In this document: positions 1,173-60,171 of the stretch, piece by piece
Layout: the number at the start of each line of letters is the position of its first letter
Position numbering within the stretch: position 1 is the stretch's first letter
NCBI RefSeq assembly: GCF_002865545.1
Contig: NZ_CP025543.1
Span: forward strand, 496,001 to 560,000
DNA from: Spiroplasma monobiae MQ-1
GTDB lineage: Bacteria; Bacillota_I; Bacilli_A; Mycoplasmatales; Mycoplasmataceae
DNA length: 64,000 nucleotides
Reading direction: 5' to 3'
Made by a program: the position numbers and the translations under genes
The notes under the pieces: generated by a model
The model's database searches: none
What the model was told of the DNA's origin: nothing
Seen by the model: only the letters and a program-made list of their open reading frames with translations

Positions 1173-3275
1173 TTATTGTTTCTTTACTAAATCAATTTCA
1201 GAAATCATTAACTTAGTTTTATTTATGTTGTATTTTAATTTTATATTAAAAATATGTACAGTATTTCCATCACTTACAGTGTATTCAAAATCATTTATTG
1301 AATTTTTCTTTGTAGAAACACTTATGTTTTTAAATAAATTATTTGCTTCTTGAGTTAAAGCATTAATTTCTTCATTATCTTTATCTGCTCATTGTTTGAA
1401 AACAGAATTACTTTGTTCAACTATTTCTTTTGATTGTTCTAAGAATTTAAAGAATTGTTCTAAAACAGACCCTTCTTTCAATGACCCATCTTCGTTATAA
1501 CCTAAAACTTCAAACATTTTAGAAGGGTTTTCTAATGCTCTTTTTACTGTATCATCTTTTCTTAATCGTTTAATTAATTCACCAATTTCATTAAATTCAA
1601 TTTTTGACTTATTAGTTTTAGTAAAAGAATTAGAGAAGTCATTTATTAATTCTTGTACGCTTTTGTTGGTAATGTATTCATCTCCTCTTGGTTTTGGTTG
1701 ATTGAATCTACTTTCTCCATCACTTGATTTTATTGTGAAATTTGATTCTTTTGAACTGATTTTATTCATAGGAGTTTTTAATATATTCATTATTGAGAAA
1801 CCAAGTTTATCATTATTGTTGTTTCATAAATAACCCATTCAATCATTTTTGAATTTTTCTGTATCTTTATTATTTTTGATTGCATCTATAAATGGTTTTA
1901 TTGTATCTGGCAGCATTGATGTAAATCCGAATAGTAAACTATTTACTAAACCAATCATTTTGCCACCATTTTCATTGCCAAGACCAGAATTCACATAACT
2001 TCTTACTAGTGAATTAACATATATTTTACCTAATACAAATGTTGCATCAATATAGTCTTGTCCCATTTGTTTTCTAAGTAATTTTTGAACTACATCCATT
2101 AATCCGTCATTTACTTTTTCTGTGAAATCTTGTCTTCTTACAAAATTTGTTGAATTTGTAGCTAATAATATACCAACAAAGTTTTTAAATGAAACACCTG
2201 TTGTATCATTATTTACCATGAATTCTAGTTTTCTAAATGTTTCTTTAACATCAATTGAGTTAGAACTAAAATTTGCAGTTCTCTTTTCTTCAATTTTAGC
2301 TAAAGTAAGTAAACCTGATGTCATATCATCATAGCTAAATTGATCAATATAAGCTAACAACGTTCTTACAAATCTAATAACTTCAGCAATTGAATCTATA
2401 TTTTCTTCTAAATTTACATTTAATTCAGCTTCTTTATCCATTAATTTTTTAATATTGTCTGCTAAAGTTGTAGTTGCTTCATCATAGTTATCTTCAATCT
2501 GTCCTTTATTTTCTGATTCTAATCATCAATCAGAACTTCTGTTATTAATCATTTTATCCACAGCATTTGAAAGACCAATCATACTTGATTTTAAAGCTGT
2601 TTGGTAATCCATATCTTTATAAACATCAGTGCTGAAAGCATTTTCAAGTAATTGTAATTTATCTTCAGATAAAACTTTACCTAATGTTTCTAGTATTTCT
2701 GGAGAAATAATTTGTTCAATCATTTCTGGGTTACTTACAACAAGACCCAACAATCCTTGTAGAGAACTTGGATCAGATAACATTTCAAGAATTGTTGGCA
2801 CAGTTTCTTTAAGTGTTTTTACAATACCTTCGTTTGGAGCGCTAGGATCTATTACATAATCTTGATAAACATTATCAGATAACTTAACATCTCCTGATAA
2901 TATTCCACTCACATTGAAATATTTTTTAGCAATATCACTGTACTTGTCCTTTTCAAAAGCACCTTCTGAGGAGTGAAAATCATTTAGACCTAAATCTTTT
3001 AGAGTCTTATTCTTAACTTGGCTTTCAAACATAAATTTAGAACTAAAGTGAGTTTCTTTGTCTGAAAGTGTATTCTGATTAATATAAAGTGTTTTTGCAA
3101 ATTGAGACATTAACTTAGAAATAGTGTCTTGTCTTTCGGCAGATTCAAAGTTATTTTCCTTTGAAGGCTCTTGCGTATCTTTATCTGTATTTTTTTTACC
3201 GCCACAAGCAGCAACACTACCAACAGTAGAAACCGACATTGTAACTGCTCCTAATAAACTTAATAATTTTTTCAT
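1173..3275 (-). CDS. MOLPALP-type lipoprotein 1 (700 aa)
   Basis: A surface lipoprotein of the mollicute paralogous lipoprotein (MOLPALP) type. The N-terminus is Met-Lys-Lys-Leu-Leu with a hydrophobic core and a lipobox ending at Cys24 (Ser-Val-Ala-Ala-Cys), so it should be diacylated and anchored to the outer face of the membrane. The rest is hydrophilic and rich in Asn, Asp, Lys and Ser; the function is unknown. The frame runs through TGA codons at about 1389, 1824, 1839, 2523 and 2526, all read as Trp, so the shorter frames seen under the standard code belong to one gene. It is a tandem paralogue of 3831-5918, with a segment of about 140 nt identical at DNA level (1852-1991). The stop is TAA at 1173. 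I saw only a weak hairpin downstream. Confidence 0.85.
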
Positions 3276-3380
3276 TTTAATACCATCCTTTTTTAATTGA
3301 ATTACATAATTATTCGTTTAAATTTAAAATATAAATTTAGTTAATACGAATAATAAATTAACCTAACTCATCTTTTTAGA

Positions 3381-3680
3381 TAGTTAAGCTTATTAAGAAT
3401 ATATTCCTTTAAATATTTTTATCAATTAAATTGAAGATCTTGAAAGACTTGACTTTTTACTTTTAATTTATAACGAGTATAAAAATATTTTTAAAAATAT
3501 TTTTATACCTAATATTTATTGACTATTTTAGAGTTATAAAAACTACTGAAAATTTAAAAAAAAAAAAAAAAAGTATTTATTCAATAATTAGGGAGCTTTT
3601 AAAAAAATAGAAGCCCTTTATTTATGGCATTAAATAAACTTTGTGCTTTATAATATAAAAATCATTTTAAATAAAAAAAT
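3381..3680. repeat. Duplicated intergenic block, copy 1
   Basis: About 300 bp between the two MOLPALP genes that closely matches 8131-8428. The block has a long conserved run starting near GTTAAGCTTATTAAGAA, a perfect 32-nt palindrome at 3477-3508, a 17-nt A run at 3556-3572 and a conserved tail near TTTGTGCTTTATAATATAAA. In this copy the tail forms the left arm of a large hairpin (3636-3662 pairing with 3682-3706); in the other copy the right arm is missing. No gene is visible in 3276-3830. The block lies upstream of lipoprotein 1 and probably holds its promoter. Confidence 0.75.
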
Positions 3681-8017: not shown

Positions 8018-8130
8018 CTTTTTTTCCTTTACTACTTTATTACAGTTTATGAAGTCACATCATGAAAAATTAGTGACTTGATTAAGTTTAATTAAATACA
8101 TAATTAATTTCACCCAACCTTTTCTTCAGA

Positions 8131-8428
8131 AGGTTAAGCTTATTAAGAATATATTCCTTTAAATATTTTTATCAATTAAATTGAAGATCTTGAAAGACTT
8201 GACTTTTTTCTTTTAATTTATAACGAGTATAAAAATATTTTTAAAAATATTTTTATACTCCATTTTTATTAACTAATTTTAAGTTCAAAAAATTAATCAA
8301 AATTCAAAAAAAAAAAAAAAATGTATAAATTCAATAATTTGGATTTAGTTTAAGATAAAAGTTATTTATTTATGGTGTTAAATAAGCTTTGTGCTTTATA
8401 ATATAAAAATTATTTTAAATAAAAAAAT
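8131..8428. repeat. Duplicated intergenic block, copy 2
   Basis: Second copy of the block at 3381-3680, upstream of the membrane protein, esterase and lipoprotein 2 unit. It contains the 32-nt palindrome at 8227-8258 (extended here by GAG/CTC to 36 nt) and a 16-nt A run at 8306-8321. The rest of the gap 8018-8554 holds the promoter region of DegV on the plus strand, with a perfect inverted repeat TAAATAGA-TT-TCTATTTA at 8469-8486. I see no gene in it. Confidence 0.75.
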
Positions 8429-8554
8429 GTTTTTACAATTATGCAACTATTAAAAAAATATTTTTTGCTAAATAGATTTCTATTTAACACCAATTAAAAA
8501 TGATAATATTATCTTGTAATTAACAATTAATTTTAATAGAAAAGAAAAAGAAAT

Positions 8555-23980: not shown

Positions 23981-24005
23981 AACACTTTCCTAAAAAGAAA
24001 GTGTT
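23981..24005 (-). terminator. Hairpin between RpiR2 and the ROK kinase
   Basis: AACACTTTCC and GAAAGTGTT form a stem with a short A-rich loop. It overlaps the RpiR2 stop codon (24004-24006) and is followed on minus by TTTTCTTTTTTT. It is almost the same sequence as 22953-22975. Confidence 0.6.
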
Positions 24006-24732
24006 AAATTTTTTCAAATATGTGAAGGAATAAAAGTTCTAAAATTATATTTCTATATATCATTTTAGAACTATTAAAATCGTAATTCAATATCATTTCT
24101 GCTTCGAATTTTTCATCAATTTTAAATCTTTGTCTTTCGCTTGCTATTAAAAATGACTTTTGTCCTTCTTCCCTTGTTGAATTTCAAACTTTTAATAGTG
24201 AATCATTATCTGCAGAACAAATTATAATTATGTTTAAATCATTAACATCATTTTTAATTAAATTAGATCTATAGTCATTACTAATTAGTCTTACATTTTT
24301 ATTTAATGAGACAAAAAGATCTTTTATATAATTTGCTGCATGTTTAACTTGATATGATGAATAAATATTAATTGTTTCTTTTATTTTTAATTCATTCACA
24401 ATTTCTTTTATAAAGAAATTGTTTTGTGAAATTCAATGTGTTATAGAATTTAATTTTTCAATAACGTTAACATCTTTTATATTTCTATTTCAATCATAAT
24501 GTTTATACTCTTTTTTTAATTCAAACATTAATTCTCTATAGCCAGAATAACCAATTTTCTTTGAAAATTTAGTTATTTGACTTATACTAACAAAAGATTC
24601 TTGAGCAAGTGTTTTCTGATCTTTAAAATCTCCATTGTTGAAATGACTTAATATTATCTTAGCGATTGTAATATATGTTCCTTCATTAATTCCTCTTGTT
24701 ACTTTTTCAATTTTTTCTACTATTGATTCCAT
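24004..24732 (-). CDS. RpiR/MurR-family regulator 2 (242 aa)
   Basis: Sugar-phosphate-responsive regulator of module 2. The N-terminal HTH contains Thr-Leu-Ala-Gln-Glu-Ser-Phe-Val-Ser-Ile-Ser-Gln-Ile-Thr-Lys-Phe-Ser-Lys (about residues 40-57). The C-terminal SIS-like region begins with Ile-Asn-Ile-Tyr-Ser-Ser-Tyr-Gln. The frame passes TGA at 24184 and 24490. It is closely related to RpiR3. Upstream are a -10 box (TATAAT, 24774-24779) and a run of 17 A (T on the gene strand) at 24791-24807, which sits where the -35 region would be. Confidence 0.82.
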
Positions 24733-24773: not shown

Positions 24774-24807
24774 TTAAGATTATGTTTTTCAAAAAAAAAA
24801 AAAAAAA
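24774..24807 (-). promoter_or_regulatory. RpiR2 promoter with 17-nt homopolymer
   Basis: TATAAT on the minus strand (24774-24779) lies 40 nt upstream of the RpiR2 start. Eleven bases further upstream begins a T17 run (A17 on plus, 24791-24807). A homopolymer this close to a promoter could change length by slippage and so alter transcription. Confidence 0.5.
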
Positions 24808-28945: not shown

Positions 28946-29671
28946 TTAAAGTTTATTAAATATTGTAAAGAAAAGCATATTAAGAGCCAATATTCTAGTG
29001 TCTGCTCTTGAATTATCCAAATCAAAGTCAATAAGCATTTTGGCTCAAAATTCTTCTTCTAGCTTATTTTCTTGTTTTTCAGTAACAATCAAGTAATTAT
29101 TTTCTTTTGTTTCATAAGACTTAGTAAAGTTATCAATTAAAGTATCATTGTCCCTACCTGTTAAAACCACTATATTAATTCCTTTTCCATTTTGTTGTCT
29201 TGGTTTGAATCTAAATTCATTATTAAGCAGTATTACATCTTTGCCATATTCTATTAATAAGTTTGCAAAATATTTTGAACAATCATAAGCTTGATAAGAA
29301 GAATAAATATTTATAACTTCTGCTCGATTTATTCCAATTATTATTTCATCAACAAATTTTTCATTGTTTTGAATTCAGTTTTGAATATTTGCAAAAACCT
29401 CTTGTGAATCAATCCTACTTGTCTTTTCATAGTTATATTTTGATCATTCATTTTTAATTGTAAAAATAAACTCACGATATCCAGAAAATCCAAGTTTTTT
29501 AGAAAACTTAGTTAATGTAGATATAGAAACAAATGTTTGTGAAGCTAGCTCTTCTTGATTGAAAAATTTTCCGTTCTTTGAATTTTCCATTATCTTTTTC
29601 GCTATTATTTTAAAGGTTGTTTCTTCAAAATCCTTACTTAATATTTCCAATTTTTCAAACACAGAAATCAT
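28946..29671 (-). CDS. RpiR/MurR-family regulator 3 (241 aa)
   Basis: Regulator of module 3, closely similar to RpiR2. The HTH has Glu-Leu-Ala-Ser-Gln-Thr-Phe-Val-Ser-Ile-Ser-Thr-Leu-Thr-Lys-Phe-Ser-Lys (about residues 42-59); the SIS-like region starts Ile-Asn-Ile-Tyr-Ser-Ser-Tyr-Gln-Ala. I chose the ATG at 29671 because GAGGG lies 8 nt upstream; a TTG at 29689 would add six residues but lacks a site. TGA codons at about 29444 and further downstream read as Trp. The promoter has TATAAT and a homopolymer at the -35 position. The permease gene begins 95 nt downstream. Confidence 0.82.
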
Positions 29672-29693
29672 TTTTTTACCCTCTTCCAATTTG

Positions 29694-29732
29694 ATTATAG
29701 ATAATTTTTATTAAATAAAAAAAAAAAAAAAA
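29694..29732 (-). promoter_or_regulatory. RpiR3 promoter with 16-nt homopolymer at the -35 position
   Basis: TATAAT (29694-29699 on minus) is 17 nt from a T16 run (A16 on plus, 29717-29732). That spacing places the homopolymer exactly where a -35 box would be, the arrangement expected of a slippage-tuned promoter. Confidence 0.5.
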
Positions 29733-36465: not shown

Positions 36466-36830
36466 ATTATAAATAAAATTGGGTGTTCTAAACCAAATAC
36501 TCAACTTTTGGTTTAGAAGAATAGCAAAGAAAATAGTTTTTTGAGTAATTAAGATAACCAATATCATCTAAATTTGATTAAGACAATTTTTTAAAATTTA
36601 ATTTCCCGAAACACATTAATTAGTAGTAATTACAGTATACAGCCAAACTTAAATTCACCATTGGTCACAAAATAATCACTTCTGGTGAAAGAAACCGATG
36701 TTTCTTTCAATCTAATCTTTTCAAAAAAACTCATTAAAATCTATGCTTTTTGAAAAGTTAAAAGGTGTTTATAAAAAAAAAAAAAAAAACTCAGAATCAT
36801 TGCATATAAAGGGTTTTTTTAAAGAAATGT
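36445..36830 (-). ncRNA. Candidate structured non-coding RNA A
   Basis: A stretch without any credible reading frame but with a series of perfect or near-perfect stems. A 12-bp stem lies at 36486-36518 (TTCTAAACCAAA / TTTGGTTTAGAA), a 9-bp stem at 36687-36708 (GAAAGAAAC / GTTTCTTTC) and an 11-bp stem at 36717-36757 (CTTTTCAAAAA / TTTTTGAAAAG). It closes with the terminator at 36441-36465. Possible minus-strand -10 boxes are at 36924-36929 and 36965-36970. I looked for RNase P, tmRNA and SRP signatures and found none. The strand is inferred from the terminator. The upstream part of the gap also holds a 27-nt palindrome (36831-36857) and two homopolymers (36773-36789, 36880-36896). Confidence 0.35.
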
Positions 36831-37013
36831 AAAATATTTTAGTCACTAAAATATTTTTAAGTTTCAAATCACTCTTTGCTTTTTTTTTTTTTTTTTATTA
36901 TTAAGAGGTATTAGTTATCTTCCTATTATAACTAATACACCATTTTAGAGAATATTTGTTTAAGATTATATTTTTTTACAAAAAAGTTATATTTTTTATT
37001 GCCTTATACCTAC

Positions 37014-37019
37014 TATAAT
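37014..37019 (+). promoter_or_regulatory. -10 box of the SDR gene
   Basis: TATAAT, preceded by TAC, lies 33 nt upstream of the ATG at 37053. A ribosome-binding site AGAGGTG follows. No clear -35 box is visible. Confidence 0.6.
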
Positions 37020-37052
37020 GTTTTACTATATTTACATAGAGGTGAAATAAAA

Positions 37053-37889
37053 ATGAAAAATAAAATTTGATTTATAACCGGAGCCAGTCAAGGTTTTGGT
37101 TTAATCTTTGTAAAAAAATTACTAGATCAAGGACACTGTGTAGTTGCTACAAGTAGAAGTCCTGAAAAAATTATAGAACAAGTTGGTAACAATGATTCTC
37201 TTTTAGCTTTAAAAGTTGATTTATCTAACCAAAAAGAATTGGATGACGCAATGAAACAATGTGTTGATAAGTTTGGATCAATTGATATATTACTTAACAA
37301 CGCTGGTTACGGACAATTGTGAACATTTGAAGAAACAAGTGATGAAGAAATAAGAAAATGTTTTGAAGTTAACTTTTATGGTACTCTAAACGCAACACGT
37401 GCTGCATTACCATATATGAGAAAACAAAAATATGGCCACATCTTTACAACAGCATCTGTTTGAGGTTATGTTGGGGATCCTTATATTTCTACTTATGCTG
37501 CAGTTAAATTTGCAACAGATGGTTGAACAGAAGCTCTTAGTCATGAACTTCAAGGATTGAATATAGGAGTAAGTTGTATAAAACCTGGAGGTTTTAGAAC
37601 TAATTTCTTAGAAACAACTTCAATGGTAACTGGAGAAGATAAAATTGCTGATTATAAAGAAGCAAGAGATAAGTACTTTGATAACTTAACTAACTTCAAT
37701 AAACATCAAGATGGAGATCCAGAAAAATACTGTGACTTTATTATTAATTTAACTAAAAAAGATAAAGTCCCTCCATTACACATCTTCACAGGTAGAGATG
37801 CTTATAAAATGGCAGAAGATAAAATTGCTAAAATTAAAAAAGACATGGAAGAAATTCAACAAGAAGCTACAAACTTACACGTAGAATAA
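37053..37889 (+). CDS. Short-chain dehydrogenase/reductase (278 aa)
   Basis: An NAD(P)-dependent oxidoreductase of the classical SDR family. The cofactor motif Thr-Gly-Ala-Ser-Gln-Gly-Phe-Gly lies at about residues 9-16, Asn-Asn-Ala-Gly at about 85-88, the catalytic Ser in Thr-Ala-Ser-Val, and the Tyr-x-x-x-Lys pair in Thr-Tyr-Ala-Ala-Val-Lys. Frequent TGA codons in the first half read as Trp. It is a solitary plus-strand gene with its own promoter and a bidirectional terminator shared with the convergent Ig-like gene. The substrate cannot be predicted. Confidence 0.88.
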
Positions 37890-37924: not shown

Positions 37925-40651
37925 TTAGTTAAATAGAGATTCAATATCAGGATATTCACTTATACCATTTACATAAAATCCAGTAAATTGATATACAGTT
38001 TTGCTTTTAACACTGTTTTGGTTATCTTTTGCTTTTATTGTTAATGTGTATGTACCATTTTTAAAGTTAGTAGCTGAACCAGGTTCAATTTCTATATTAA
38101 CAATATCAATTGGATTTAAATCAAAGTTTAAAGAAATAAATTGTTCTAATATGACTTTAGAAACTTTATTAGAATCAAGCAAGTCTTTTTTATCGGTGAT
38201 ACTACTAATAATTGATCCAACACTTTTAATTTGATTTTCCTTATCAGATAAATCAAGTGGTGAGGTTCTTAAAAATGCATCCTTTAAACTTCCCTTTATT
38301 AATTTAGAATCACTTTTTGCAGTTATATCAAATCTTCTATTAATCTTTTGACCTTGAATTTTGTGGAAATTACTAATTTGTATATCATTCATATATACAA
38401 GATACTCTTCTTCTTTTATATTATTTTTTTCAAAAAGTCCTTTTATTAAAACTTTTAAATCTTCTTTGTTAAGTTCAGAGTCTGAACCTTTATCAGCAAA
38501 ACCTTCTATAAAACCAAGATTTTTGTCAAAATTAGATATATCAATTATATCTTTTACAAAAACATCAAATTTAATATCTTTTGCATTTTTGTAAGAGAGT
38601 AAAATTGATGTATTACCTTGTTTTAAAGCTATAATTTTCATTTTACTTGAATCTTGATCAAAAGTAACTTTTACAATTTCTTCATTTGTTGTTTTAAATT
38701 TTAATGTTTCATTTTCTATTTTGTTTTGCACATTGACCAAAAACTCATTTGTGTCTCCAACACCAAATAATGTTTTATCTTCCACTTTTTCGATTACTGG
38801 GTCTAGTATTGTAGTCTCATTCACTTTAACTTTTAATACTGCCTCATTTTTTTGGTTATCTGCTTTAAAAATTAATTCTGTTTCACCTTTTTTTAAAGCT
38901 GTTATTTTTATTTCCCCTTTTGATTCAACTATATTTATATCAATAAAATCTACAGCAGTTTCTTTTAAAATTAAATTTTTAGCCTTTTTATTATAATTTA
39001 TTGTTTTTTCTACAGTTTGACCATTAACGATATTAAACTCTAAAGTTGATTCACTAAGTTCTATATCAACTCTATTGTCAAAAACTTTTATAACAAGAGT
39101 TTCATTATTTTTTGAATTACTTGCAGAAAATTCCACATTGTAAGTTCCAATTTTTGTTGCTTTAATATGTATTGTTTTTTGTTCATCGTTGATAACAACT
39201 TTTAATGATGGGTCAACTTCAGAATGAATACTTAATCCCTTTATTGATTTGTTGTATTCAATTGTTTCACTTGAAACTACATCATTTGTTAGTTCTAAAT
39301 TAATTTCTTTTTTACTCAAATTTATTTCATAACCTTCATCAATAACCTCTATAGAAACTGTTTTTGTTTTTAAAGAATTATCTGCTTCAAAAACAATATT
39401 TGTACTTCCTTTTTTCAGAGCTGAAAATTTTATTGTTTTTTCTTCTTGATAAACTTCTACTTTAACTACATCATTATCATTAGAAATTACTCTTAGATTT
39501 CTAATGGCATGACTATATTCTATTATTGTAATTTCTTTTTGCCCTTCATCTATTTTTAACTCAAGACTATCTGGAATATCTATTTCGTATTTGGATTCAG
39601 TTATATTTACTTCCATAATCTCTTCTTTTTTTGCATAAAGAGAATCAAAAGTTATTATAGCTCGACCAACTTCTATAGGTTTTAAATAAATATTATTATT
39701 ATTTTGATCTATTGAAACATCAATCTTGTTTCCACTTATGTCCTTTACAATCAATTCTTTAATATTTTTATTATATTTAACAACCTTATTATTTGAATTT
39801 TGATAATCTAACAATAATTCAATTTTATTTTGTTCAAGATTAATTTCTTCTGGGTCAATAATGGTTATGCTTAATTTTTTTGATAGTTGAAATTCATTTG
39901 AATAGAAGTTGACATAATAATTACCTATTGGTGAAGAAGAACTAAGGTAAAATATTATGCTTTTATTTTCTAATTCAATTTTTATATCAATAGAGTTTGG
40001 GGTATTTTTATCCTTAACAATAAGATCAGAAACCTTATTATTAAATTTAACTCTTTTTTCAGTATCTTTATCATTTATCATAAAAATAGAGTTATTACTT
40101 ATTAGATTACTTTGTGTTACTTTTGTAAAATTTATTCACATAAATATAGAAAGAGCCAATATTACAAATAATGAAATTAATATAGCCAAAGATATTAATA
40201 TATTTTTTTTAACTTTTGGATTAGATATTTTTTTCTCTTTATTTGTTAGATTATCTAGTTTGTCTAAATTTTCTTTAAGATTATTATTTGGTTTTGATTC
40301 TTTTTTTATATTTTCAAAATCACTTTTTTTCTTATAATTTTTACTATCAAAATCTTCTTTTACTTTTGGGCTTGAAGGATTTGTATTATTATTAAAACTT
40401 GGTATTCATACTTTTGCATTATTTTTGATTATCATTTGGCAACAATAACAATGTTGACAAAAACCAAATAAAAAATGTTCATAAATAGGCACTTGCACAT
40501 TTGTATTTCAATAACAGCTACATTGATCGCAGCTTCTGTATAAGAACTGAATATAAGAAAATGCATCGCTTATTAAATAAAACCTACCCATAACATTATG
40601 GTTATTATCAACAACATAAAATGAATTATCGTTAATTAATATGTAGTACAT
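37925..40651 (-). CDS. Type II Ig-like repeat surface protein with Cys-rich cytosolic head (908 aa)
   Basis: Function unknown; the architecture is clear. Residues 1-80 hold seven Cys (41, 44, 46, 65, 68, 70, 71) in two clusters, a zinc-ribbon-like pattern rare in mollicutes. A charged linker rich in Asn, Lys and Ser (80-148) leads to one membrane segment (150-173). About 735 residues outside follow, with five to seven repeats of 80-90 residues, each with an Ile-Asn-Tyr-Asn-Lys-like element and a Thr-x-Ile-x-Phe-x-Ala-like strand, resembling bacterial Ig-like domains. The ATG at 40651 is inferred by extending upstream through TGA (Trp) codons of the shorter 718-residue frame. A GGGGAG site precedes it. 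A 16-nt T run lies next to the -10 box. Confidence 0.8.
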
Positions 40652-40679: not shown

Positions 40680-40704
40680 AATTATGTTAAAAAAAAAAAA
40701 AAAA
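40680..40704 (-). promoter_or_regulatory. Promoter of the Ig-like gene with adjacent 16-nt homopolymer
   Basis: CATAAT on the minus strand lies at about 40681-40686, and a T16 run (A16 on plus, 40689-40704) begins two bases upstream, filling the spacer between -10 and -35. This resembles the variable poly-A spacer of the Mycoplasma hyorhinis vlp promoters. A second run (T16 on plus) is at 40747-40762. Confidence 0.5.
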
Positions 40705-40787
40705 AGTATTTTTACCCCTAAAAACTTTTATTATAAAAATTATATGTTTTTTTTTTTTTTTTGTCAAATAGCGACTTTAGATTAAAT

Positions 40788-42583: not shown

Positions 42584-45052
42584 TTAAATTAAAACTTTAG
42601 ACTTATACTCATTTGTAAACTTTTCTCTAAGTTTAATTTGATGCTCTACAATTTTATTTTCAAATTCATCTTTAATGTTAATTTTTTGGTTTGAATATTC
42701 TTCTAAATAATTTTTTTTATCAAATTTTTCCAATGATGAAACCTTTTCTTTTTTATTATTAACTAAATCTGAAATCGCATTAGCTCTATCTTCTTTTGCG
42801 GTTTTAACAAATTTTTTAGTTTCTTCTCTTTTTTTATTTACAAATTCTTTTTCAGAATCTTTTAAACCTTTGTAAATTAATTTAGCTTTTTCGATTTTTT
42901 GAGTTGTTTCACTATTAATTAAATTTATTTTATCTTTTAAAGCATTTATTTTATAGATAACATCTTCTCTTTCTTTTTGAGTTTTAGACATTTTTACTAA
43001 TTCATTTAATCCTTTAATTTCATTTTTAATCTCTGAAATTTCATATTTCTTATCTTCAATAAATTTTTCAACAGTAAGAACATGAGTTTCTTTTAAAGAT
43101 CCCACAGTTCCTCTGCTTGAAATTAATAACATTCCATAAACCGATGTTGTAACAGCAACTCCAGAAGCAATAGCTATGAAGAATACTGCAGTTTGTCATC
43201 CATAAGGAACAGCACCCAATATAGCAACAATTGGTCCACCATGAGCTGCAAGATCAGTTATTTGAAATGCTCCTGCAATTGCTCCTGCAACCATTCCACC
43301 AAGAACATTTGAAATAATTGCTCTTTTAGGGTCTCTAATAGCAAATGGGATTGCACCTTCAGAAATACCAATAGTACCCATAATCATTGCGGAAATACCC
43401 ATTCCTCTTTCTTCTTTTGTAAAGAATCGTTTAAACACAATTGTGCTCAAACCCATTGATAAAGGAGCAACTGGTATTGCAGCCGCCATTGCACCCATAG
43501 GTTCTGCAATAGGATCTGCTAGAGTAACAAGTGATGCACAAGTAACAAATGCAATTTTGTTAATTGGACCCCCCATATCAAATGATGCCATAGCACCTAA
43601 CAATATTCCCAAGGCAATTCCCAATCCAATACCAAAGTTTGGACTTTGATATCCACTCTTAATTGCATTAGATAATTGTTCCATCACATAACCAATTGGT
43701 CCACCAATTACATAAATAAATAGAACAGATATTCCAATACCTGCTGTTAGAGGTATGAAGAATATTGGCATAACAGCTTTTAATGATTTGTTAACTTTTC
43801 AAGTATTAACTCACTGAACATAGTAACCAACCAATAAACCAGCAATAATAGCTCCAATAAATCCTGTTGGGGTTCTAACTTCACTCATACCTGGTAAAGG
43901 CATGAATTTAGAAGCATCATTACCAATAAAAGCACCAAGCATTGCAGGAGCAATTGCTGCTCTTCCAGCTATTGAATTAGCTATGAATCCAGCTAATATA
44001 GGTATCATTAATGTAAATGCAGCTCCTCCAATTGAATCCATTATTGCTAATGGATTTCAAGGATATCTGTTTTCAGGACCAGCAGTACCTGATTCGGGTC
44101 CTCAAATTGCTTTAGCAATTCCTATTGAAAATGCCAAACAAATTCCACCCATTATAATTACAGGGATCATATATGAAATACCAGCAAGTATATGTTGTAG
44201 AACCCCTTGTTTTTGTTTAGCAATTCCACCTTCATTGCTAAATTCAACCCCTAATTGAATGCTTCCTTTTAAAAAAGCATCGTCAAGAACCTTTAATGGT
44301 TCTTTTATAGCTCTGGCAACATGTGTTGAGTACACCAATTTCCCATTAAATCTTTCAAGATTAACTTTTGTATCCGCTGCAATAATGACTACATCAGCAG
44401 CTTCAATTTCTTTTGAAGTTAATGGGGTACCAACCCCTTTACTTCCTTGTGTTTCAACACGAATATTGTGTCCCGCTTTTGATAATTCTGATAATAGTTT
44501 ATCTTCTGCCATATAAGTATGAGCAACACCAACAACACACGCAGTAATTGCAACAACATTTTTACCATCAAGGGTATTTGCTTCTTTAAAGACTTTATCT
44601 ACTTTAATATCCATAAATTTAGAGAATTCTTTCGAGTTTTTAGCAGTTTTTAATTTTTTTCTTAAATCTTCAGACATAAGTTTTTTAGCAGTTTCACTTA
44701 ATATATTTAAATGTTCACTTGAAGCATTTTCGGGTATTATTAATGCAATAATAACTTTTGTAGGTTTACCATCAAGTGATTCTCATTCTACATCGCCTAA
44801 TGTTCTAACACAAATTATTGAAGCGCTTTTTATACCCTTTACCTTTGCATGGGGTATTGCAAAACCATCTTCAAACCCAGTTGTTCCTTCTTCTTCTCTT
44901 TTATAAAATGCCTTTAAAAGAGATTCTGATTCTGAAAAAATACCAAGTTCTTGTGCTTTATTTGTAATATATTTTAGAACTTCATCTTTTGAATTTAGTT
45001 CAATGTCTAAGAATATATTTTTGTCTATATAAATATTTTCCAAAATTTCCAT
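42584..45052 (-). CDS. fruA: PTS fructose-type permease EIIABC with long helical tail (822 aa)
   Basis: Imports fructose or mannose as phosphosugar. EIIA of the fructose group is N-terminal (active His68 in Ala-Ile-Pro-His-Ala-Lys), EIIB next (Cys172 in Thr-Ala-Cys-Val-Val-Gly-Val-Ala-His-Thr-Tyr-Met-Ala), and EIIC (about 290-650) contains Glu-Gly-Ala-Ile-Pro-Phe-Ala. The last 165 residues are an uninterrupted Lys- and Glu-rich segment with almost no Pro or Gly, a predicted coiled coil. TGA codons in EIIC read as Trp. ManA and a Cof-type phosphatase follow upstream, so mannose may be a substrate; no 1-phosphofructokinase is adjacent. Confidence 0.9.
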
Positions 45053-45081
45053 TTTCCTTTCTTTTTTCTAGATAATTTTCT

Positions 45082-45121
45082 AAAAAAAAAAAAAAAAAAA
45101 CAACCCTTTTAGCTGTTTTTT
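45082..45121 (-). terminator. Terminator of manA feeding into a 19-nt homopolymer
   Basis: On the minus strand AACAGC can pair with GGTTGTT (with one G-U pair) around TAAAAG, followed by T19 (A19 on plus, 45082-45100). The same run is about 30 nt upstream of the fructose PTS start, so it may serve both as terminator tail and as promoter element. Confidence 0.5.
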
Positions 45122-50335: not shown

Positions 50336-51568
50336 TTATTTATTTGTTTTAAATCTGTTGCAATCTACACATAACATTTGTAAGTTTTCATAAACTGTTT
50401 TTCCACCCTTGCTTCAAGGAACAATATGATCTCCTTCCATTTTTTCAAATTGAAAGACTTTCTCGCATTTTCGACCTTTAAATCCTGGACAAATTCCTTT
50501 TTGCTCAAGAAATTTTTTTCTTTTCATTGTTTTATCAAAAGCTCTAAAACTTAAATATTTTTCATCATTTGTTAAAACGTATGGAAAAATACCAGGTTTT
50601 TTTATAATTTCTTCATCCTCCATTAATTCTTCAACTTTTGTTTGTATATCAATAAAATTAAATTTTTTATTATATGAAATATTATAAATATCTCCTCATT
50701 TTTTATTTACAGATTTTAATTCCTTTGCAAATAAGTAGCTTGAATTTTTATATCCAAAAATATCTAAAACTCAACTGACAACCTTATTTCAATGATCAAT
50801 CAAATCATTTGCATTACTTTCATTTCTATATTTGTTCATATAAGATTCAATATCGCAAATTTCTTTATTTATAATATAATCAAAACTACTTTTTCATTCC
50901 AATGCTAATTCTAAAACTTTTTGTCTTCCCGCCTTTGTATCATCAAGTTCAACAATCTTGCAATCATTTCTCATGGGTTCAATCAATGCACGACAACCGT
51001 TTTTGCTTAATCCAAAATATTTTTTAGCCTCAGTAAGCCAAGTTCCTGTATAAGCTGCATTTCTCAATTCTTGCTCATTTAATTTTTCTCCAGCTGTATT
51101 TATAACTTTAAATCATTTTAATTTTTCTTCATTATTTCCCAGACAAATTCTAATATCAAGTTCATAATTCATAATTTTATTATATGTTGTGGGTAAAGAT
51201 TGTTTTAAATTAGTAGCATTCATTTTCGAACCATTAAAAATTCCTTCTAAATTAAAAGAATTAACATCAGCTAAAAATTGACAAATACTTAATATTCTTT
51301 GCTGACCATCTAATACTTCATACTTTTCATTATTAGATTCTACATTTACTAAAAAAATAGTATTTAAAGGGAATTCTTGGATTACGCTCTCAATAACTTT
51401 TTGTTGTTTTTCCATATCATAAATAAATTCCCTTTGATAAGCCGGCCTTACTATTAAATTACCTTTTCAAGCCAAAACCTCTTCATCATCATCTATTTCA
51501 CTTAATTTTTTATAACCCTCAAACAAATCCTTTATTTTGATTGTTCTTATATTATTATCTATTTTCAT
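50336..51568 (-). CDS. DUF262 and HNH nuclease domain protein (410 aa)
   Basis: A probable nucleoside-triphosphate-using DNA nuclease related to GmrSD-type proteins. The DUF262 (ParB-like) motif Asp-Gly-Gln-Gln-Arg lies at 87-91 within an N-terminal domain (1-150). The HNH part at the C-terminus has Gly-Asp-His-Ile-Val-Pro-Trp (379-385), a zinc Cys pair at 360/368 and another at 400/403, and the downstream Asn in Glu-Asn-Leu-Gln. TGA codons join three shorter frames. The start overlaps no gene but sits four bases after the methyltransferase stop, whose last codons hold its AAAAGGAG ribosome-binding site. The pairing suggests restriction by this protein and protection by the methyltransferase. 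Confidence 0.82.
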
Positions 51569-51572
51569 TAAA

Positions 51573-52670
51573 TTATTTTCTCCTTTTAATTATCATTCTC
51601 ATATAAGGGAAAACTTTTTTTCCATTTTCATCCTCATATCAAACATCCTCTTGTTTTCCTAATTCATTTGGAGTTGTAGAAATTCAGGGATTTCTTCCAA
51701 GACCAATAATATCAAATTGATCTGGATTTCACTTTAATAAAAACGAAATAGGAACCCCCATTGGTTCAAAATAATCAACCGGAATTTGTTTAATCTTATC
51801 AACATTTATTGCATCATAATTACAATATTTGCGATATATTTCACTTTCATTCTCATAAAGATAATTTAAAGGATATTTTTCATATCTTTTTTTAAAATCT
51901 AAATTTGTAAATCAATTATGATTTCCAAATTTTTGTAAAATATCCCCGTTTGCTGTTCTAATCATTTTCTTATCATCAAATAAAGTATCGAAAGGTACTT
52001 TATGTTTTTTTGGTTGCGTTACGCCTAATCATAATTCATTATTTTTAATTAATTTAAATATTTCTTTATAGGAAATTGCATTCATATTACCAATTATTAA
52101 AAACTTCTTCTTATTTTCAATTATTTGAGACACGAACTCTCTAAATAAACTAAATGGCGGATTAGTTATTACTATATCTGATTCTTTTAAAAGCTTTATA
52201 CATTCTTCACTTCTAAAATCCCCATTAGAAGTTTTAAATCAAATAGGTTCAAAATCATAAATATCTAAATCATTTCCACCTTTGTATCTCATGCCATATG
52301 TGACTTTATTTTCATTATTATAATGTGTTGCTATTAATTCTTTAAGACCTAAGGAAGAAAACATTTTATGAAAATACAATCAAAATTGACTTGATTTTTG
52401 TTCAAAATCATTTGGATTTTTATTTTTAAAATATTGATTTGCAGTAGACAATAATTTTGAATCATTCTTCAATACAGCTTCATCTAACATTTTTTTTCAT
52501 GTTTTTGATCCAAAAAAATCCTTAAATAGTTCAGGATCATCACAATTACATAAAATTGTTTTTCCCTTAAAGTTATCCCAATAATAAGACATTTCCGATT
52601 CAATTGTTTCATAAGTAGTGTAAAATTCATCATTTTTTATTTTTTTTGCATTTGCCAAATTTTGTTTCAT
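51573..52670 (-). CDS. EcoRI-family adenine-specific DNA methyltransferase (365 aa)
   Basis: Adds a methyl group to adenine N6 in DNA. Asp-Glu-Phe-Tyr-Thr (14-18) and Cys-Asn-Cys-Asp-Asp-Pro (41-46) match the SAM-binding start of the EcoRI methyltransferase family. The catalytic box is Asn-Pro-Pro-Phe (170-173), followed by Ser-Leu-Phe-Arg-Glu-Phe and Ile-Ile-Gly-Asn-Met-Asn-Ala-Ile, also typical. The whole gene is cut up by TGA (Trp) codons, so no long frame appears under the standard code. The start has AAGGGG. Target site unknown; an EcoRI-like GAATTC cannot be assumed. The partner nuclease gene follows after four bases. Confidence 0.85.
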
Positions 52671-57135: not shown

Positions 57136-59910
57136 TTATTTTTTGTTTTTTTCTTCTCTACGTTTAGCTTGTGCAATTTTTGCAGCTTCTTTACCAACAG
57201 CAGATTTATAGAAACGTTTACGTGAAATGAATCACATTGACATAATTACAAGTACAATGATTGAAATTCCACCAAACGCTAATATTGGTGTAACTCATCT
57301 AGGCATTGAACTTGGTGTTTTTAAACCATAAACTGTTATTTCAATAGTGATGTAGTTTCATTGTCCTTCTTTTCTAGATTCAAAATCAGACAAAGTATTT
57401 GCAGAAGTAAACGCTCTATCAAATAATCTAACAGTCATTTTTGATGAGTTAGCTTTTAAGTCATATCTCATATCACTTATTAAAGCAATTCCCAATCCTG
57501 GATCTAACATTTTATGTTTGTTAATACGGTTTTGAATTTGAATTAGGTTAGCACCTAATTCATTACTTGTTGTTAATCCAATTCCGTTAAATTGAAGTTT
57601 TTCAACTTCTTTTGCTTTTGCATCTAAATCCAATTTATTTTCTGGTGAGAATTTTTCTGCTTCTGAACCAAAAACGTTATCGTCTAATTTCATTTTAACT
57701 TTTAAAGTTTTTAATGTTATATAACCATTTTCAGAATCATTTTCATTCATGAAGAAGAAACTATTATCAATTCCGCCCTTAGGTTTAATTCTAATGTTAT
57801 CTAATGTGTAGTTTCCATCTGCATCCGGTTCTGCATTAATTGCAAACCCTCAGCCATCGCCTTCTCATTCCTGACCACCTAAGAATCAGTCATTAATTTC
57901 TCATTGACTATTTGAAAGTTCTTTTCACATAACATTTTTTTCAAATCCTTTTACAGATTCTAATGAATTTTGAATTTGATTATAAACTCATCCAACAACA
58001 CTATTAAAATCATCATAACCTTCAAGAACATAACCTTCTTGTCAAGGTGAAATTTCGCTTAAGTTATATCTATTTGTGTAATTTGTATTAACAGCTTGCA
58101 TTTTAGAATTTCTAAATCTTGATGTATTTGAACTATCAATATTTTTAATTTCTACTCTACCACTTTCGTTAATTTCACCAAATTTATCATCTGGAATCAA
58201 GTACTTATCTACTATATTAATTTCATAGTCAACACCAATTTCTGAATCAGCAAACATAGCAGAGACTTTCTCATCACTAACAACATTTCCACCAACCGAT
58301 GAAATTGCTTTGTCAAGTTCAAATATAAGATCTTTTTCATACTCTTCACTTCCATTTAAAGGAGTTGCTCTTGTATAAGTATAAGGTTGAGTAACCATAT
58401 TTCTAAGATCGTATTTTTCAAAAACCCTTGAGTTGAAAACCCCATTTCCATTAACCTCATTAAATGAATATTTTAGATAACCCTCTGAATATACAACTGA
58501 GTTCGGTAAAATTCCGTAATTAGTTGATACTACAAGTTCATCCAAACTTGAATCCAAGAATAATATTTTTCTAGCTTCACCATTAGTAAAGTTTCTTGGA
58601 TCTTTGTATGAATATTGGTAAATAGAGTTAGGTGTTGTAACAACTAAATTGTAATTATTATTAACATCATCTTTATATGAATAAAAACCATTTACATTGT
58701 TATCTTCATAATATACTTCACCATTCATAGTTTGACTAAATGATTGTGGTTGTAAATCAAAAAGCTTCTCCATTTCATTTCTTTCATTTACAAAGTAAAT
58801 AGCTGATTTTGTGTTTTGTGAAGTACCCTCACTTGCTGCAATAATGCTATATTGTGTATTTGCATAATCCAATGTGTGTTCTGTGTTTGTAATAAAGTTT
58901 ATTGATTGATCATCTCTTTTATTAGAAAGAATATTATCAGTCATAGTTAGATCAGAATTCAAACTAAATGAATGAAACTTATTATCTTCTCTATTAGTAA
59001 AATTTAAAGTAACTTTATTATCTCCCCCCATTGAAAAACTTGAATTTGTAGGATTATAAATATTACCAAATTCATATGTAGAACGTTTAACTAAATCTGA
59101 GGAATTTTTTATTATATCACCATTTTTTGAATTATCCTTATCTCCAGATATTATAGCTTTACTTAAGTCAAATCTATCAACAGCATAATTCAAACCGCCA
59201 TCTTTATGATAATAATTATAGAATACATAGATACTGTTATTTTGGTCAGAATTTGAAATTGATCTTGTTGGTGAATAAACTTTTAAAATTTTATCTCCGT
59301 TTTTATAATTTGGGTTTAAATCCAAGTTTAAAACTACTTCAGAAGCTGCATCAGGACTAATATCAATTACTTTAATTTTTCCTACATTACCAATAACATC
59401 TTTAGTTGCATAACTCATATATTTTGTTTTAGTACCATTTAAAGTATTGCTTTGTTTATAAGTAGACATAAAAGAAGCTGCAGCAGTATTTGCTCCAAGT
59501 GAACCATTGAAATCTAAATCAGTTACAACATTTGAAAATCCCTTTTCAGGATCATTTTTAATGATAGATCCACTTACATTATCGTTAGTAACGTTATAAA
59601 TAATATCGTTTTTAGTATCTCCATCACTATATTTGTAAGTTGCTACAATATTTCTAGCATCAGTATTTCCTATTTCTGCTTGTGCAGCAGTTTGAATACC
59701 ATAATTTGTATTTCTTTGAGCATTTAATTTTAATTCTTCATTACCTGGTGCTAAACCTGTAAATAAGTTAAAAACATCACTATTAACACCTTCTAATTTA
59801 GCTGCTGCTCTAGTTCCAAAAATATCTAAAACACCAGTTTGTTCCGCCATTAAAGCAACTGGTTGAGCTGATATAGTGATTCCACCTAGTAAAGTTAATA
59901 AAGTTTTCAT
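57136..59910 (-). CDS. Large type I surface protein, unknown function (924 aa)
   Basis: Signal peptide at 1-22 (Met-Lys-Thr-Leu-Leu-Thr-Leu-Leu-Gly start, no lipobox Cys), then about 850 residues outside, rich in Asn, Ser, Asp and Tyr with many predicted beta strands. One membrane segment follows (873-896), and a basic tail of about 28 residues. No known domain was recognised. The first 622 codons contain no TGA, while the C-terminal third has many Trp codons, so composition changes along the gene. The start follows GGGG. It lies 23 nt upstream of the similarly built gene at 54473-57112, and the two are probably cotranscribed. Confidence 0.8.
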
Positions 59911-60060: not shown

Positions 60061-60171
60061 GTGTAGAAAGAGAAAAAAGAATACCAAAAAAGTAAATATT
60101 TTTCATTTTTCTAAAAAAAAAAAAAAAAAAACTAAATAAATTAGAATTAAATTTATTAAAAATCTTTTATT

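Follow-up and report, generated by a model that had tools for sequence, protein, structure and literature searches.

We start from the described systems that lie closest to our case. Among mollicutes, phase variation has been described in a small number of surface-antigen families, and the A-run in the vlp promoter of Mycoplasma hyorhinis is reportedly about 17 nt long. Insertions and deletions in this promoter homopolymer switch the transcription of surface lipoproteins (Citti and Wise 1995, reviewed in PMC10502178). In Mycoplasma mycoides vmm, the promoter spacer from the -35 box to the -10 box holds a (TA)n repeat, and transcription depends on the length of this repeat (Persson et al. 2002, reviewed in PMC10502178). 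A third report (PMC3053259) describes intergenic GC(T)7-20 motifs in M. mycoides subsp. capri 95010, at a spma-like lipoprotein locus.

The A/T runs considered here share with vlp the homopolymer in the promoter region, and with vmm the location of the repeat in the -35/-10 spacer. Unlike the vlp run, however, most of them are T runs when read on the coding strand; they take the form TTGC-Tn and are scattered among PTS, ABC, regulator and surface genes that are unrelated to one another. Whereas vmm has a dinucleotide at few loci, these are mononucleotide runs at dozens of loci per genome. The likeness to vlp is one of promoter form, with switching putative here, and we do not claim membership of the vlp gene family. 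The motifs of subsp. capri apparently carry the same TTGC-Tn signature within the same bacterial family; in the passage that describes them, they concern one lipoprotein locus, come with no promoter analysis, and span 7-20 nt rather than peaking at 16-17 nt.

The window that we analyze is a stretch of 64,000 nt from Spiroplasma monobiae MQ-1 (GCF_002865545.1, NZ_CP025543.1, positions 496,001-560,000, forward strand), whose genome is a single contig of 891,575 bp; ORFs were read under code 4. An earlier note on this DNA listed eleven A/T runs within a narrow length range. All eleven are present where the note placed them (Table 1), with lengths of 16 nt (four runs), 17 nt (five) and 19 nt (two). 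One entry needs correction: the run given as 16 nt (40689-40704) is actually A17 (40689-40705; entered as T17 on the minus strand in Table 1). Shorter A/T runs number 107 at 7 nt, 22 at 8 nt and 2 at 9 nt, while the window contains none of 10-15 nt. When the counts of runs of 6 nt and more are extrapolated (Markov orders 0-5), the window is expected to hold 3-6 runs of 11 nt or longer, mostly of 11-13 nt. Neither the lack of runs of 10-15 nt nor the presence of eleven runs of 16-19 nt agrees with this, and a chance origin is rejected.

The genome-wide length distribution, which the earlier note had proposed as a check, contains 25 runs of 16-20 nt, one run of 10 nt and none of 11-15 nt. This gap is derived arithmetically from the 10-mer counts (122 forward, 82 reverse), which these 26 runs explain fully. 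The statement that no run of such length lies inside a gene also extends to the whole genome, with 25 of 25 outside ORFs. Eleven of the 25 fall in the window, which is 7.2% of the genome (p = 4.5e-7, or 6e-6 when corrected for 14 windows).

The length gap is a property of the whole lineage. Among 20 congeneric genomes, 539 runs are 11 nt or longer and 526 of them reach 15 nt, and among 60 genomes of the family (totals summed by hand) 1019 of 1085 are at least 15 nt long. Runs of 16 nt are few or absent in other families of the order. Within the genus, two genomes (G014, G016) have very few long A/T runs, and one of about 1.6 Mb (G010) has no A/T run of at least 11 nt genome-wide and also lacks mutS1. 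Because mutS1 is missing from all 20 congeneric genomes, the tract-less one included, loss of MutS is rejected as the cause of the differences between species and is permissive at most.

Runs longer than about 10 nt are error-prone in several sequencing methods, which favors the explanation that the lengths are imposed by sequencing or assembly. The same gap is seen, however, across the 60 family genomes, and the tract positions are conserved between species, so that we find this explanation barely credible. As applied to presence and position it is largely refuted, and the doubt is confined to the last base or two of the length.

Table 1. Long A/T runs of the window, with their flanking elements and downstream genes (tract letters are those of the coding strand where a strand is assigned).
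Tract	Position	Strand	Flanking elements	Downstream gene
T17	3556-3572	-	280 nt upstream of gene; heads a leader common to 8306-8321	lipoprotein gene 1173-3275
T16	8306-8321	-	divergent region 8114-8554; flanks homologous to those of 3556	
T17	24791-24807	-	ends 6 nt before CATAAT (24779-24784); TTG absent at 5' edge; preceded by weak A/T hairpin	RpiR-type regulator gene 24004-24732 (Pfam)
T16	29717-29732	-	last six T in the -35 place, 17 nt before TATAAT (29694-29699)	RpiR-type regulator gene 28946-29689 (Pfam)
A17	36773-36789		same divergent region as 36880; no clear promoter or hairpin signature	
T17, spacer	36880-36896	+	TTGCTT (36876-36881), 17 nt, TATTAA (36899-36904)	SDR (short-chain dehydrogenase) gene 36999-37889
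T17	40689-40705	-	CATAAT (40681-40686) two nt 3'; TTG absent 5'	Ig-like gene 37925-40651
A16, spacer	40747-40762	-	TTGACA (40762-40767), 17 nt, TATAAT (40739-40744); near-perfect promoter	37925-40651, 908-aa Ig-like protein (Pfam)
T19, spacer	45082-45100	-	TTGTTT (from 45103), 17 nt, GAAAAT (45075-45080, weak -10)	fructose-type PTS gene 42584-45052 (Pfam)
T16 (+ strand)	53620-53635		gene-poor stretch; no promoter signature	
T19	60113-60131	-	202 nt upstream of gene	gene 57136-59910

We turn our attention to the promoters. In the clearest cases the tract itself is, by the boxes that flank it, the predicted -35/-10 spacer. On the coding strand, these cases read TTGAC[A16]CATATAAT (spanning 40739-40767), TTGC[T17]ATTATTAA at 36880, and TTG[T19]AGAAAAT at 45082; the orthologous promoters have TTGC[T16] in G001 for the SDR gene and TTGC[T19] in G015 for the PTS gene. 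The earlier note was correct in placing several runs at promoters, and these three best cases are other than those it named. The three that it had put in or next to the -35 region (24791, 29717, 40689) are less clear: the run end does take the -35 place at 29717, but the other two have the 3' hexamer and no TTG on the 5' side. The 40689 tract, the second one upstream of the Ig-like gene, belongs either to a second promoter or to the leader of the first. The true start of the gene downstream of 29717 is probably an ATG located 18 nt further in.

Five tracts of the window (3556, 8306, 36773, 53620 and 60113) have no promoter signature. Two places, 3276-3572 and 8114-8321, share a leader of roughly 200 nt that contains an A/T stem-loop (TATAAAAATATTTTTAAAAATATTTTTATA); one precedes the lipoprotein gene and the other a second gene. 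No Rfam family is matched anywhere in the window, this shared leader included. The window also has, at 50336-52670, an EcoRI-type adenine methyltransferase (PF13651) beside a 410-aa protein with an HNH-like C-terminus, a possible restriction-modification pair judging from the sequence.

Outside the window, further tracts bracketed in this way have spacers of 19 nt in TTGAC[A16]GGACTATAAT, 18 nt in TTG[A19]CCTATAAT, 17 nt in TTGC[T18]ATACAGT and 16 nt in TTGC[T17]GTAAAAA. For a statistical view we use four congeneric genomes with 104 oriented tracts, and define the TTG signature as TTG(N0-2) touching the 5' edge of the tract on the coding strand. The signature is present at 50 of the 104 tracts, compared with 6 of 104 on the opposite strand (p 2e-12), which leaves 54 without it. 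A -10-like hexamer stands at the 3' edge of 40 of the 50 TTG tracts versus 15 of the 54 others (p 8e-8). The arrangement of the vlp and vmm switches, in which a simple repeat lies in the -35/-10 spacer or next to one of the two boxes, is thus found at 40747, 36880 and 45082 and among the 50 TTG tracts, 40 of them with a -10-like box. With a lax -10 score, 49 of the 50 are positive, but so are 39 of 50 in the shuffled null; in DNA so rich in A and T, single weak -10 assignments are therefore unsafe. The spacer histogram of tract-free TTGA..-TATAAT pairs in this genome is too sparse to set a spacer optimum. The mapped promoters of Spiroplasma melliferum have -35 TTGACA and -10 TAWAAT (PMC5138195), and given this likeness of the boxes the tract promoters look like ordinary promoters in which the spacer has turned homopolymeric.

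Since the arms of terminators may also end in TTGC, we check divergent intergenic regions, where terminators are not needed, and find TTG at 11 of the 16 tracts there. Given this frequency in divergent regions and the association of TTG tracts with a -10-like box, the idea that TTGC is only the 3' arm of a terminator hairpin is rejected. The 60 family genomes contain 126 copies of TTGC-T13 and none of its mirror pattern, a control that is lenient owing to the scarcity of CpG.

Terminator-like hairpins do precede 21 of 117 tracts, compared with 3.1 in shuffles, and the length distribution is the same in TTG tracts, hairpin-following tracts and the others. It follows that the length is not tuned by the promoter, and that the narrow length range, being common to non-promoter runs, is by itself no evidence of a switch. 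The length as such appears to be a mutational attractor, in which case hairpin-following, unassigned and promoter tracts would all share one length distribution. Not every run is a switch, and about a fifth follow terminator-like hairpins. Perfect palindromes in which a T-run passes directly into an A-run (T17A17 and the like) are also seen, several per genome (G000:C1:145666-145699; G001 C1 475826, 514488, 596067; G018 C1 541666, 715462, 801478). They are far too many for chance adjacency and are possibly bidirectional terminators.

These observations bear on a neutral explanation, in which any T-rich intergenic stretch of an AT-rich genome without mismatch repair grows, once past about 10 nt, to 16-17 nt and stays there until a substitution, with spacers and terminators as places of nucleation and no selected switching. 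The length mode shared by TTG and other tracts, the excess after hairpins and the absence of mutS1 are all in its favor. The concentration of tracts in spacers in the correct orientation speaks against it. We consider it rather unlikely, and the comparison between species has arguments for both sides.

Tracts are common to orthologous promoters of PTS, ABC, SDR, metallo-beta-lactamase-fold and RpiR genes across species, and this retention speaks against the neutral explanation. At the promoter of a glucose-type PTS the run measures 18, 17, 15, 16, 18 and 26 nt in six species and is absent in others, of which G019 carries T10 in the same place; a spacer of T10 where relatives have T15-T26 agrees with neutral growth past a threshold. 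The sister species G004 and G009 have 15 clear orthologous tracts. Seven of the 15 differ, each by 1 nt, differences which may include sequencing error, versus 5 of 125 runs of 4-7 nt (p 2e-5); the flanks diverge by 4.6%. Tract length accordingly changes faster between the sister species than the length of short runs does, as is expected of a vlp/vmm-type switch. Five other resolvable tract sites of G004 have become T8AT6 (two sites), T6AT8, AT10 or a deletion in G009, and the T8AT6 and T6AT8 sites again favor neutral growth ended by substitution. The conserved tracts are preferentially promoter tracts, however, with the TTG signature at 9 of the 15 conserved and 0 of the 5 lost (p ~0.03, by hand), and this is against the neutral explanation.

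The same comparison bears on the idea of a fixed structural element, in which an A/T tract of some 16-17 nt, being stiff or bent, sets promoter strength or the response to supercoiling or temperature and is selected for constant length. While it would explain the narrow range and a tract that fills a spacer of about 17 nt, it is hard to reconcile with the same lengths outside promoters, with 15-26 nt at one orthologous promoter and with tract-free orthologs. We regard it as improbable.

The genes that follow tracts are largely PTS, ABC, spiralin, Ig-like, lipoprotein and RpiR genes, together with SDR and metallo-beta-lactamase-fold genes; most are transport, surface or regulatory genes. Lipoprotein signals are found in the genome, and a spiralin-domain protein is encoded downstream of one tract. 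In G009 (C1:227000-246000), tandem operons of about 6 kb, each with a 616-aa lipoprotein, an ABC permease and an ABC ATPase, have their own T17 promoter tracts with TTTAC or TTTGC before the tract, a layout that resembles the vlp gene array.

The next question is how far such promoters extend beyond the family. Promoters of the form TTGAC-An-TATAAT, with n of at least 12, exist in Selenomonadales (rumen) and in Ca. Campbellbacteria. TTGAC-A12-CAAYTAYTATAAT promoters recur at many loci of Selenomonadaceae/Selenomonadales MAGs, and about ten similar A-run promoters are seen in one Ca. Campbellbacteria genome (RB_MAG_00022). The A-run spacers of both groups have a mode of 12-13 nt and decay from 12, without a peak at 16-17, and with such run lengths elsewhere a bacteria-wide occurrence is rejected. 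Mrazek reportedly worked earlier on long simple repeats in Mycoplasma genomes. Our literature search, with most subscription journals outside its scope, found no report of the tracts in Spiroplasma or of the length gap. Lineage-wide homopolymer promoter spacers at a quantised length are, from their sequence, a candidate novel form of promoter-slippage phase variation, in which the switching is putative. The likeness to the vlp poly-A switch claimed by the earlier note is good in form (homopolymers in promoters, lengths that differ between close relatives), but it does not reach the five window runs without promoter signature or the roughly one fifth of runs elsewhere that come after hairpins.

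The best explanation, to which we give a probability of about 0.6, is a slippage attractor combined with a promoter-spacer switch or tuner of transporter, regulator and surface-protein operons. Without MutS, runs longer than about 10 nt would drift to an attractor length of about 16-17 nt, and substitutions would end them. Many of the tracts would be the spacer between a -35 (TTGAC/TTGC) and a -10 (TATAAT-like) of sigma-70-type promoters; spacer tracts are clear three times in the window and make up about half of the oriented tracts in the four congeneric genomes. Replication slippage, uncorrected by MutS, would add or remove single bases, each slip shifting the spacer around an optimum near 17 and making the promoter stronger or weaker, so that the transcription of single transporter, regulator and surface-protein operons may be tuned cell by cell. 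We infer slippage within clones, an effect on expression and a benefit to the cell. Several observations count against this explanation: roughly half of the tracts have no TTG signature, 21 of 117 come after hairpins, all classes share their lengths, single -10 assignments are weak, and tracts are gained and lost at orthologous promoters. A bolder version is tentative: homopolymer length would have two stable states in the family, one under about 10 nt and one of 15-19 nt, the lengths of 11-14 nt between them being nearly forbidden. The attractor, whose length happens to match the optimal promoter spacer, would have been recruited to regulate genes for sugar uptake, export and the cell surface stochastically across the genome.

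The near-absence of runs of 11-14 nt over 60 genomes is a sharp clue to slippage without mismatch repair. The same promoter architecture recurs at many loci per genome, sugar uptake and regulators included, in insect-associated bacteria with few transcription factors. If tract switching is true, small changes in length could turn transporter and surface-protein genes up or down, and the tract promoters would form a general bet-hedging layer.
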